Source: Selenomonadales bacterium (GTDB taxonomy: Bacteria; Bacillota; Negativicutes; Sporomusales; UBA7701). Taken from it: a stretch of 55,645 bases of DNA. Made by a program: the position numbers and the translations under genes. Numbering within the stretch: the first letter of the stretch is position 1; every line of letters begins with the position of its first letter. The stretch is from the NCBI GenBank assembly GCA_029975165.1, contig JARKPR010000042.1, positions 1 through 55,645 on the forward strand. The letters run 5' to 3'. The notes below the pieces were generated by a model. It worked only from the letters and a program-made list of their open reading frames with translations. It had not been told where the DNA came from and did not search any database. Of this stretch, positions 52,394-55,645 are shown piece by piece.

Positions 52394-52690
52394 CTAAAAC
52401 TGGCCGTCCTCGGCGGAGAGGTTCTTGCTCAATTTGCCGATGGCCCTTTTTTCTATTCTCGAAACATAGCTGCGCGAGATGCCGAGGAGCTTGGCGATGT
52501 CGCGCTGGGTTTTCTTGCCGCCGTTCGGCATGCCGAACCGCATTTCCAGCACCCATTTCTCGCGGCTGCTCAGGCGCCTGATCTGGTTATTGAGACGTTC
52601 CTGCTCGCACTGGATCTCCACGGCTTCAGCCACGACGTCGGGAGCGGTGCCTAGGACGTCGATAAGGGTGATTTCATTACCACTATCAGG
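52394..52690 (-). pseudogene. sigK: Sigma-K C-terminal half (spoIIIC-like), interrupted at Gly-Asn-Glu
   Basis: The 99-codon open stretch ends at 52394. It encodes GNEITLIDVLGTAPDVV, then region 4 with SREKWVLEMRFGM, KTQRDIAKLLG and ISRSYVSRIEKRAI. This is the C-terminal part of sporulation sigma-K (the wording ISRSYVSRIEKRA fits sigma-K better than sigma-E). The similarity stops at the Asn-Glu codons, and a TAA at 52691-52693 closes the frame five codons before GNE; no start codon with a ribosome site is present. In Bacillus subtilis sigK is split at this part of the protein by the skin element, and the C-terminal half there is called spoIIIC. The other half is outside the window. A plain truncated pseudogene is the alternative. 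Confidence 0.85.
52674..52678 (-). other. AATGA, candidate crossover core of a skin-like element
   Basis: On the minus strand the codons for Gly-Asn-Glu read GGT AAT GAA and so contain AATGA. The same 5 bases are recalled as the recombination core of the B. subtilis skin element in sigK. Sigma-K similarity ends here. The matching site should be found at the far end of the element, next to the 5' half of sigK. Confidence 0.6.
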
Positions 52691-52693
52691 TTA

Positions 52694-53016
52694 TCTGTAT
52701 TCGTTCTCTAACCCTTGTAATTATTATATCTGAAAGTTGTTTGCGAGGCAAAATTTATTACCCACAGACCATTTGCCACCAAATACCGCGTGCTCAACCC
52801 GCCCCCTTTGAGGCTGGACGCTTACCTTACATCCAACACCCGGTCAATGCTGGCCGTTAGTCCATGTCAGCACGAGCGGGCGCGTCCGCACAAGACGAGA
52901 ATTGCTGGTAAAAAATACGAAGCCCCCGGGGGCGGCTCCGGCGGGCTTCGCGTTGGAGGCAAACTATTATAAAAAGAGGGAGGAAAGGTTATGCACCTAG
53001 ATAACGATAGCTAGGA
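52694..53016. other. Gene-free stretch next to the sigK break
   Basis: No gene is recognised in these 323 bases. The first part is AT-rich (including TAATTATTATATC near 52720). The middle is GC-rich and includes one ATCCAAC unit like those at 65-106. The last part carries the terminator at 52909-52950. It would be the left terminal part of an element inserted in sigK. Confidence 0.5.
52909..52950 (-). terminator. Terminator downstream of the YjcZ-like gene
   Basis: CGAAGCCC and GGGCTTCG close a long GC-rich stem. On the minus strand it is followed by TATTTTTTACC. It lies about 70 bases after the YjcZ-like stop. Confidence 0.82.
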
Positions 53017-53121
53017 TCAACACGTTGATTCCTCTTCGAAGGAGAACAGGAAGAGAAGAATGATTATAATAATCACTACAACTACTCCACCTTGGCCAAA
53101 GCCGCCAAATCCACGCATCAT
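53017..53121 (-). CDS. YjcZ-like small sporulation protein (34 aa)
   Basis: This very short gene encodes MMRGFGGFGQGG, then VVVVIIIIILLFLFSF and an acidic/Cys tail (EEESTC). A glycine/phenylalanine-rich head followed by one hydrophobic helix is the usual layout of YjcZ-family sporulation peptides. Two ATG codons are adjacent (53121 and 53118), and GGGGG lies upstream. A terminator follows. Its place beside sigK fits a role late in sporulation, but the tail differs from typical YjcZ endings. Confidence 0.7.
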   Translation of the reverse strand: MMRGFGGFGQGGVVVVIIIIILLFLFSFEEESTC

Positions 53122-53209
53122 GCAAATTCCCCCTTAAACTTAAGTTATAATATCCTATGTAAAGGCTCTTCAAATTGTTACTTGTTAAGTGGCTAGAAAC
53201 CAATCAAGC

Positions 53210-53237
53210 AAAAGCCCCCTGGCCAGCACCAGGGGGC
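53210..53237 (-). terminator. Terminator downstream of the catalase gene
   Basis: GCCCCCTGG and CCAGGGGGC form a 9-bp stem with a 6-base loop. On the minus strand TTTTGCTTG follows. It is about 120 bases after the catalase stop and is the first good terminator there. Confidence 0.8.
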
Positions 53238-53358
53238 GATACTATCCAACCGTCTATTGCCCGCGAAGTACCGTTCAGCCCTCGTTAGTTTCACCTGCTG
53301 CAATATATCCGATTTCCAAAATAGCCGGTCCTTCGGCATTTCCTTAATGGGTACATTT

Positions 53359-54810
53359 TTATAGATCCAAATTTATTCCCTGCGCTATTCTGCAGCCAAA
53401 TTCATTATCAACTCGCAAAAAATGTTCAATCATTCTTCTTTGAATAGGCTCATAAGCTTGACTTAGATTTTCTACGATATTAGAAATTAAATGTTTCCTT
53501 TCCACTGCAGACATATTTCGATATCTAAATCTGGCTTGATAATAATCGTCGCCTGTTATTTCGTACCGAGCTATACAACCTGAAGCAAAATTCTGAGCAG
53601 GTTTTCCTTTCTGAGGTGCTTCCATAGGCATCCCATCATCTAAAGTATTGGGTAAATAATTGACAATGCCTGGGTTATACATGGTTTGCATGTCTCCGTT
53701 CTGCATCATATTGTCAACCGAAGTTCTAGGCATATTTGTTGGAAGCTGTAAGTAATTTACGCCTATGCGATATCTTTGGGCATCTCCATAGGGAAAGGTA
53801 CGGCCTTGTAAAATTCTATCATTCGTAAAATCTATTCCCGGTACAATAGCCGCCGGAGCAAAGGCGGCTTGCTCGACTTCAACAAAAAAATTCTCAGGAT
53901 TTTTGTTTAGCACCATTCTGCCCACCGGCATTAATGGAAATAAGTTCTCAGGCCAAATCTTAGTAGGATCCAAGGGATCAAACGTCTGCTCGCACTCATC
54001 CTCAACGTTCATTATTTGCACACGCATTTCAAATTCAACTGTGTGCCCCGCAGCAATGGTATCAAACAAATCCCTGCTTGCTACGTCAGGGTCTGTGCCC
54101 GCAAGTTCAGCTGCTGTCTTGCTATCTATGTATTCAACCCCTGCACAGGGTTCCCAGTGATACTTAACATACACCTTTTCTCCGCATAAATTAACCCACG
54201 AATATGCGTTGACGCTATACCCAGGGATTGTTCTATAGCTTTTAACAATCCCATTATCTGAAAACAGATAGGTAAGGAAATTCATAGACTCCGGCCTTAA
54301 CGACATAAAATCCCAGAACCGGCTGGCTGCTATCGGACCTCCCCTGAGATTAGTAACCGGGTCCGGTTTTAAGGCATGAATAAGATCCGTAAACCGAATA
54401 GGATCTCTAATGGGAAATACGGGAAGATGGTTGCCAACAAGGTCATAATTACCTTCTTCTGTATAAAATTTAACAGCAAAACCCCTGATATCCCGCACTG
54501 TATCTGCGCTGCCAAGAGAACTGCCTCCTATCGAAAACCTAACAAAAACAGGGGTTTTCTTTTCAGTATCTTGCAAGAATTTCGCCTTGGTCAATGAAGC
54601 CATTGATTGATAGGGTACAAAAAAACCAAAAGCTCCGGCTCCTTTAGCATGTAATGCTCTTTCAGGAATTCTCTCCCTGTCGAAATGTGCAATCTTTTCT
54701 AGGAGAACTATATCCTCAAGTAATATTGGCCCCCTTTCACCTACAGTTAATGAATTTTGATCATCGGTAACAGGGGCTCCCTGGTTGCTGGTAAGATAGC
54801 GTTTCGTCAT
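53359..54810 (-). CDS. katA: Haem catalase (monofunctional)
   Basis: This 483-residue catalase converts hydrogen peroxide to water and oxygen. It has the active-site His (FDRERIPERALHAKGAGAF, His54), the distal Asn in VGNHLPVF (Asn127), and the haem-ligand region RTFPYGDAQRYRIG. The ATG at 54810 is preferred over an in-frame TTG because GGAGGAG precedes it. The gene is visibly AT-rich, unlike the GC-rich genes to its left, which suggests horizontal origin. A promoter (54892-54920) and an AT-rich palindrome resembling a PerR box (54836-54850) lie upstream. Confidence 0.95.
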   Translation of the reverse strand: MTKRYLTSNQGAPVTDDQNSLTVGERGPILLEDIVLLEKIAHFDRERIPERALHAKGAGAFGFFVPYQSMASLTKAKFLQDTEKKTPVFVRFSIGGSSLGSADTVRDIRGFAVKFYTEEGNYDLVGNHLPVFPIRDPIRFTDLIHALKPDPVTNLRGGPIAASRFWDFMSLRPESMNFLTYLFSDNGIVKSYRTIPGYSVNAYSWVNLCGEKVYVKYHWEPCAGVEYIDSKTAAELAGTDPDVASRDLFDTIAAGHTVEFEMRVQIMNVEDECEQTFDPLDPTKIWPENLFPLMPVGRMVLNKNPENFFVEVEQAAFAPAAIVPGIDFTNDRILQGRTFPYGDAQRYRIGVNYLQLPTNMPRTSVDNMMQNGDMQTMYNPGIVNYLPNTLDDGMPMEAPQKGKPAQNFASGCIARYEITGDDYYQARFRYRNMSAVERKHLISNIVENLSQAYEPIQRRMIEHFLRVDNEFGCRIAQGINLDL

Positions 54811-54835
54811 GGTCAATCTCCTCCTACATAAATCC

Positions 54836-54850
54836 TATATAATTTATATT
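54836..54850. promoter_or_regulatory. AT-rich 7-1-7 palindrome, candidate PerR/Fur-type box
   Basis: TATATAA, one T, then TTATATT form a near-perfect 7-1-7 inverted repeat in the catalase leader. This is the arrangement of PerR/Fur boxes (TTATAATnATTATAA), though the match to that consensus is partial. Peroxide control of catalase would fit. Confidence 0.45.
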
Positions 54851-54891
54851 AATTTTAGAATTACTTATGAATAATTGAGACCACCGACGAG

Positions 54892-54920
54892 ATTAATAAT
54901 TACCGGGACGGGGTTGTCAA
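54892..54920 (-). promoter_or_regulatory. Sigma-A-like promoter for the catalase gene
   Basis: On the minus strand TTGACA (54920-54915) and ATTAAT (54897-54892) are separated by 17 bases. The transcript would start near 54885, about 75 bases before the catalase ATG. Confidence 0.6.
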
Positions 54921-54961
54921 CCACTCCGCAGCAGCAACCTACGAAAAAAAGCCCATGCATA

Positions 54962-55440
54962 TTAATTCAGCATGGTACAGCCGCTGAAAACGGGGTTGAC
55001 GTCTTCCGGACTAATAGCAGCCTTGTTACCGACCCCGTGCTCGTCGCACTTCAAACTGACGATGGCCTGCCGGGTACAGGCCGAAACCGATGATCCGATA
55101 CGCCGGGAGGTCGCGGGAATCCGCTTCGCTAGGTCGCCAATGGTCAGCACCGCCCGGTTCCGCAGCTTCTGTCGCGTGGATCGGCCGACGTAGAGCAAAT
55201 CCCCCGCCGGCAGTGGCCAAACTACATCACGATAGTTTTCCGGCGTGATAACTGATGTGGCGTCCGGTTTTCGCAGGTCGCTGCCGAGAAAATCTTATTC
55301 CAGCTGACGCCGACGCTGCCGGTGATGCCCAACTCCTCACGGAGCCGCGGCGAATCTCGTCAACCAAGACATAGGCGGCTACTAAGTCGGTCGTATAGGC
55401 GCCCGGGCGGCGATCGGCAACCTCGCATACCTGAGATTGC
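54962..55440 (-). pseudogene. Degraded Y-family DNA polymerase (DinB/UvrX-like) remnant
   Basis: Pieces of a Y-family polymerase are readable in three frames. First comes AYTTDLVAAYVLVDEIRR, then (after a missing base) RLREELGITGSVGVSWNKI. After a deletion that is not a multiple of three comes GSDLRKPDATSVITPENY, continuing into LPAGDLLYVGRSTRQKL and VLTIGDLAKR, the helix-hairpin-helix part. The N-terminal catalytic motifs and a normal C-terminus are absent. Two frameshifts plus truncation make it a pseudogene. Confidence 0.72.
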
Positions 55441-55645
55441 CGGTCTTTTCCTTTGCCTAAAAGTTTGACTTTTTGAGCATGTGGAAGCTATCGGCATATT
55501 TTATAATAAGACCGGCTATAAAAAGTCAAGTGGGAAGGAACGTTACATGGCCGGGAGATAAGGAGCGTTGTCCCGAAGAACAGCAAAAATGATGGAAGTC
55601 ATTTTGCGGCAGACATGACCGACAGCGGTCATGTGGGACTTTCCA
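55441..55645. other. Right-end region with two strong hairpins
   Basis: No gene is recognised. Two hairpins lie close together: GCAAAAATGA/TCATTTTGC (55583-55607, one bulge) and ACATGACCG/CGGTCATGT (55613-55634, perfect, 4-base loop). On the minus strand a TTGACT box followed by TTATAA is seen near 55507-55535. The paired hairpins could be the end of a mobile element or a leader; the window ends 11 bases later. Confidence 0.5.

Follow-up and report, generated by a model that had tools for sequence, protein, structure and literature searches.

The sigK-intervening (skin) elements described in the papers that we cite come from Bacilli and Clostridia. In Bacillus subtilis skin, the crossover core is AATGA and the gene for the large serine recombinase (LSR), SpoIVCA, adjoins the 5' half of sigK (PMC10745906); the recombination directionality factor, Skr, has 64 amino acids (aa), and its gene overlaps that of the LSR (PMC6957869). 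An insertion at sigK position 423 with AATGA is reported for Bacillus cereus AH820, J7 and J62; in AH820, PCR and sequencing confirmed excision, and the recombinase gene is reported to adjoin the 5' region (PMC10745906). The skinCd element of Clostridioides difficile (CD1231, CD1234) has a separate small directionality factor gene under sigma-E/SpoIIID, and its LSR gene adjoins the 3' half of sigK in the other orientation (PMC5025042); the factor, CD1234, has 53 aa (PMC10747680). Here we analysed a 55,645-bp stretch of DNA (the window) from a Selenomonadales bacterium of the class Negativicutes, whose right end holds the 3' part of sigK next to the end of such an element. The element belongs to this known kind; what is new is a Negativicutes branch, a candidate directionality factor with its promoter, and sigK genes that are cut twice.

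The sigK break in the window

The 3' portion of sigK lies at 52394..52678 on the minus strand, on the host side of the junction, and runs from the Asn of Gly-Asn-Glu (codon ~141) to the stop. It comprises the final ~95 codons, stop codon included, and matched TIGR02846 at 52397-52690 (-) over model positions 138-226 with 109.8 bits, which bears out an initial annotation in that the window codes for no more of sigma-K than its C-terminal part. Compared with the intact sigK of the congener G004 (L020), the piece showed 96% protein identity, with 34 synonymous and 4 nonsynonymous codon differences. Reading upstream, this likeness ends at GGTAATGAAAT. The break falls in the Gly-Asn-Glu codons, which contain AATGA, and comparison with the sigK of relatives placed it where the initial annotation had put it.

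The crossover core AATGA occupies 52674..52678 (-), and its GA is the symmetry centre of the attP site rebuilt from relatives. Together with the element-side arm ACAGATAA it makes up attR at 52671..52698 (-). The pattern ACAGATAA-N12-AATGARAT, taken from relatives, matched the window once, at 52671-52698 (-), with 0 matches expected from 100 shuffles; the arm is exact and stands 12 bases from the core, the same spacing as in 13 of 15 relatives with complete elements. Beyond the junction, the right end of the element extends over 52676..55645 (no strand assigned), where it is truncated by the contig end, and the GC content drops from 63.5% (1-52690) to 45.8% (52699-55505), in line with the low-GC DNA described earlier. 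We estimate a probability of roughly 0.8 that the window ends in the attR end of a skin-type element at Gly-Asn-Glu in the sigK of a spore-forming Negativicute, and that excision by an LSR with a small factor rebuilds sigK in the mother cell. The attR motif and the complete elements of relatives strongly support the earlier suggestion of a skin-like element in this gene.

A TIGR02846 search of the 100-contig assembly found no intact sigK. It returned 11 matches, and the sole long strong one (contig C10) is SigE, scoring above SigE's own cut-off. Two further matches, recognised from partial reads, are SigG-type and SigF-type factors, and the others, to which no name was given, reach at most 70.6 bits. 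SigE, SigG-type and SigF-type factors are thus all present in this genome.

The break does not coincide with the B. subtilis skin site, which we take to be Glu-Asn-Glu near codon 112; it lies ~30 codons downstream of that position. By arithmetic, Gly-Asn-Glu corresponds to the same codons as position 423 in the three B. cereus strains, and the idea that the site is new was dropped, given its report in PMC10745906. The likeness is one of position, not of sequence, and the B. cereus elements differ in that their host is a monoderm Bacillus, their cargo amounts to 38-39 kb and no directionality factor is named in the excerpt of that paper. The core is shared with B. subtilis skin, as the initial annotation had said and PMC10745906 states.

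Complete elements and a candidate directionality factor

The other end of such elements can be read in relatives. In G001, of the same genus, 51.5 kb separate the two sigK halves, which share a strand, and a recombinase gene is beside the 5' half; the congeners G002, G003 and G004 have an intact sigK. Complete Gly-Asn-Glu elements with both ends on one contig were found in 15 genomes (G001, G009, G011, G013, G019, G023, G028, G031, G038, G049, G055, G124, G125, G126 and G129) and measure 2.8-57.9 kb. In all 15, an orthologous LSR of 515-544 aa is encoded beside the 5' half of sigK, just inside attL and on the strand opposite to sigK, as in B. subtilis skin with respect to the sigK half and unlike skinCd; the one LSR scanned has Resolvase, Recombinase and Zn-ribbon domains. 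Both sigK junctions of these relatives, and the right junction in the window genome, are at a short direct core repeat. The core of the complete elements is AATGA or AACGA, and when attP is rebuilt from both ends, the GA of AATGA forms the centre of an imperfect inverted repeat. Thirteen of the 15 elements have an exact left arm, ACAGATAA (G001 has ACAGGTAA and G129 another sequence), and seven an exact right arm, TTATCTGT, 15 bases beyond the core. Joining the halves at the core in silico restored a full-length sigK frame in every case, 12 of them with strict AATGA and the remaining three with AACGA on at least one side.

The element LSR aligned over residues 23-514 of 527 with the SPbeta integrase SprA/YokA (with SprB/YotN), a solved structure, at E 3.4e-46; SPbeta sits in spsM, unlike the sigK elements. 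Related LSRs also occur in phage records: the recombinase of THSA-485A is 51% identical, its junction AATGAG lies between perfect 19-bp inverted repeats, and phages of this kind may seed sigK elements. These kin, and the G001 element, which resembles a full prophage when its list of open reading frames (ORFs) is judged by eye, would suit an ordinary temperate prophage that uses sigK as attB and leaves on induction without sporulation control. We regard this as very unlikely, as elements of 2.8-3.7 kb retain the LSR, a small ORF and little else, this ORF has a conserved mother-cell-like promoter by prediction, and sigma-K would otherwise remain broken in the mother cell.

All 15 complete elements contain the small ORF (~60 aa). 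It is separate from the LSR gene and on the other strand, which sets it apart from the overlapping Skr gene; a separate small gene is shared with skinCd. It also occurs in related elements of Bacilli and Clostridia (Halalkalibacter, Salibacterium and L109, and weakly Laceyella and Caloramator) and was not found in the Shimazuella elements. The members scanned had no Pfam, NCBIfam or PHROG match. The structure model is beta-beta-alpha-alpha, with a mean pLDDT (predicted local distance difference test) of 91 and a pTM (predicted template modelling score) of 0.49; neither the profile nor the fold gave a convincing PDB match, the fold search returning only six matches, every one with E >7. Among 60 related genomes, 14 have both LSR and small ORF, three the LSR only, three the small ORF only and 40 neither (Fisher p = 2e-8). 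When the 11 genomes that seeded the alignments were removed, the counts became 3, 3, 3 and 40 (p = 0.019); both p values ignore kinship among the genomes. In the LSR-only genomes (G012, G014, G020), the LSR is at a contig end, or the sigK pieces and the LSR are on separate contigs.

Upstream of the small ORF we found a block resembling AGGGnnGTCC-N14-CATA, with CATA mostly 24-30 bases before the start codon. Of the 28 rows, 27 have CATA within -33..-19, against a mean of 1.7 and a maximum of 7 after shuffling; the sole failure is a weak second match in G001, and GTCC is missing in five rows. Identical sequences make up the rows G129/L116 and G025/L104, and the set excludes G001's own copy, L117, G021 (start codon not located) and Caloramator L126. 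The sigK genes of the same genomes have a CATA-type -10 box, and we take CATACAAT to be the sigma-E -10 sequence. On these motifs, the small-ORF promoter is predicted to be mother-cell-like. SigE and SigK promoter motifs of another Negativicute, Sporomusa sphaeroides, resemble those of B. subtilis (PMC12456013, excerpt). Given its size, its co-occurrence with the LSR, the mother-cell-like promoter and the sizes of Skr and CD1234, we propose the ~60-aa ORF as a candidate for the factor that enables LSR-driven excision.

By analogy with these relatives, the unseen left part of the window element would carry an LSR of ~520 aa next to the 5' sigK half, and would also encode a directionality factor of ~60 aa, expressed in the mother cell under a sigma-E-like promoter. 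The LSR would then recombine attL with attR at the AATGA core and release the element as a circle, which would make sigK whole again in the terminal mother cell, and the spore would retain the element. For the window genome we infer from this analogy the missing left part, the excision, the cell type in which it takes place and the role of the small protein.

The contig end, the cargo and points against excision

The window is the entire contig C80 of a 4.19-Mb draft assembly of 100 contigs with 4.19% contamination. This contig stops at 55645, 2.97 kb beyond the sigK break, inside a dispersed repeat (55506..55645, no strand assigned). The final ~140 bases recur at at least 14 other places in the assembly, five of which are the first bases of contigs (40 of 47 candidate places were scored), and are probably the end of an insertion sequence. 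C80 thus ends at a dispersed repeat, and nothing can be read to its right. Downstream of sigK are genes for a YqeG-type phosphatase and aroE. The neighbourhood upstream of sigK, ~10 kb of which is common to G001, G002 and G004, was not found in the window genome's assembly, where just scattered matches of 66-80% identity appeared; as this whole neighbourhood is absent, the missing 5' half of sigK tells little about the organism. Contig C81, considered as the other side of the junction for a 26-bp match, was rejected, its first 20 kb showing no homology to the region of G004.

The 2.97 kb adjoining the 3' sigK half contain no ORF of LSR length besides an intact catalase ORF (53359..54816, minus strand; PF00199 and PF06628) with 41.8% GC. 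The elements of 13 relatives, those compared first, yielded no catalase, and cargo varies from one relative's element to the next. Two remnants accompany it. One, at 52783..52863 (minus strand), is a short ORF with an internal stop that G013 and G001 also have in their sigK elements; tblastn identities were 55.6 and 63.0%. At 55121..55347 (-) lies a frame-broken polymerase of UmuC/DinB type, a name assigned by eye; the decayed polymerase of the initial annotation proved real, its pieces being 75% and 57% identical, in two frames, to a protein of the G013 element. Homologues of both remnants adjoin in that element, towards attR. A 34-aa ORF inside the window element (53017-53121, minus strand) is Gly-rich and hydrophobic and presumably resembles YjcZ-type sporulation peptides; no family match exceeded its cut-off.

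With so fragmented and partly contaminated a draft, a chimera or contaminant contig could have joined a sigK fragment to unrelated DNA. This is extremely unlikely here, for the junction bears the att arm of the family at the exact spacing, the cargo remnants match genes of G013's sigK element, and the sigK C-half is 96% identical to that of a congener.

Several observations weigh against an element that can still excise. The 5' sigK half was not found in the assembly, either by the TIGR02846 family search or by a DNA search with congener sequence. No orthologue of the element LSR was found there with a 40-aa probe, the Recombinase domain or an alignment; there are five Recombinase-domain matches, four scoring 44-83 bits against the element LSR model (11 element LSRs score >800 bits on it) and the fifth without a match. 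The ~60-aa ORF was likewise not found in the assembly. These absences count even if the missing neighbourhood and the contig break explain all three. The visible cargo is partly decayed, with the polymerase and the short ORF broken, and the 34:4 signal in the sigK C-half could be older than the insertion. Among the relatives, the split sigK of G025 (L264, C36 90000-109999) lacks 12 codons in its C-part and may, judging from its sequence, be non-functional. The last sigK residues of G049, G125 and G126 are altered from about codon 220, and their joined frames end unlike other SigK. With such damaged pieces, not every split sigK in relatives need be functional. In three genomes the small ORF occurs without the LSR: G005, G046 and G021, the last with a degraded copy near an intact sigK. 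In Caloramator L126 the distance of the CATA box departs from the usual one.

Read in this light, the locus could be a dead insertion, in which an old prophage in sigK decayed together with its recombinase and left a strain without sigma-K that cannot complete spores. The broken ORFs, the lack of an LSR or 5' sigK half in the assembly, and damaged sigK pieces in relatives such as G025 and G046 would all fit. We nevertheless consider it unlikely, because the absence of the whole neighbourhood suggests that a contig was lost and not that DNA was deleted, the C-half is intact with mostly synonymous differences, and the att arm is conserved. Moreover, B. subtilis skin shows that a prophage can be defective and still have a functional recombination unit (PMC6957869, excerpt). 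A skin-type element that excises in the mother cell is thus the reading that we prefer.

Some of the loci just named have further features. In G125 (Pelosinus propionicus, L261) and G126 (L262), a further serine recombinase gene directly follows the altered sigK tail, and the 3' end of sigK is a possible further insertion site in these two; in G049 (Pelosinus fermentans JBW45, L060) the tail is altered. The degraded small-ORF copy of G021 (L265, C29 2842-2988) lies ~8 kb from the intact sigK and is perhaps the scar of a lost element. In G046 (L255, C1 208000-227999), sigK lacks 23 helix-turn-helix codons; 5.7 kb downstream is a second copy of codons 142-198, after an arm like ACAGATAA, with the ~60-aa small ORF further on.

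Distribution of the branch and sigK genes cut more than once

Of the 60 related genomes, 43 had a match at E 1e-25, SigE matches included. The class-wide survey covered 252 genomes that were at least 90% complete, 48 of them with matches. Six genomes of one genus (f18 g65), whose 104-117-bit matches resemble other sigma factors, and G035, with a SigE-like match only, were dropped, leaving 41 sigK-bearing genomes. In 19 of these sigK scored over the cut-off and is intact; in 22 it did not. Seventeen of the 22 have the Gly-Asn-Glu break only, including the window genome (G000), where the C part stands alone, and two (G024, G043) have the Glu-Asn-Glu break only. In G057 and G127 the N piece ends at Glu-Asn-Glu and the C piece begins at Gly-Asn-Glu, a middle piece being found for G057 (G127 was not searched for one). 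G046 is the one anomalous case.

Recombinases of this family were scanned in genome contigs for the best 80 of at least 134 relatives. The scan gave at least 79 loci, and a sigK piece adjoins the recombinase in at least 25. A tree of 56 rows, comprising a chosen part of these loci and others, contains a clade of 29 (support 100/97), 27 of which are in sigK; the two exceptions are a Shimazuella soli locus that is rearranged and a locus whose contig has no sigK. Four more sigK-linked scan rows fall outside the clade, whose hosts include Pelosinus, Propionispora, Massilibacillus, Laceyella, Shimazuella, Halalkalibacter and Salibacterium. At L109, in the Clostridia metagenome-assembled genome SV3-B14.1, the recombinase gene is flanked by the N piece of sigK on one strand and the C piece on the other, which suggests an inversion. 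At L128, L131 and L135 (Alicyclobacillaceae, Tumebacillus), related recombinases adjoin the 3' sigK half, the side reported for C. difficile; the genome of L128 (G078) has an additional, separate full-length sigK match.

In Shimazuella kribbensis DSM 45090, sigK is broken near codons 65 and 141, and a single 299-kb scaffold holds its three pieces in the correct order. The two elements measure 16.2 kb and 22.0 kb, a recombinase gene stands on each side of the middle piece, and two in-silico joins gave a 246-aa SigK frame. G057, an uncultured Selenomonadales, has an 86-bp middle piece of sigma-K between the recombinase genes of its Glu-Asn-Glu and Gly-Asn-Glu elements; the stop codon of the former recombinase gene overlaps the core. 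Two joins again gave a full SigK frame, the first piece sitting on another contig. An uncultured Pelosinus (L120, G070) has pieces as in G057, but no C part is among the matches listed. We lean towards the view that some spore-formers have a sigK in several pieces, cut by two (possibly three) independent tandem skin elements, each with its own recombinase and core; two excisions would then be needed in the mother cell, which would act as a double safety lock. Our searches of the open-licence literature found no paper on a split sigK in Negativicutes or on a doubly cut sigK.

S. soli (L248-L249, C1 346000-376000) has sigK in four pieces within 25.5 kb, with breaks near codons 65, 118 and 141; the last piece is inverted, possibly through recombinase-driven inversion.

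The branch is present in about half of the surveyed sigK-bearing Negativicutes, and in one lineage the element is down to 2.8 kb and still has the recombinase, the small factor and the promoter. This wide occurrence, with reduction that spares these parts, speaks for a long history of domestication among diderm spore-formers. With its two conserved genes, the unit offers a recombinase and factor that can be tested directly as a pair, and the doubly cut sigK, if true, would be an unusual case of programmed genome editing in bacteria.

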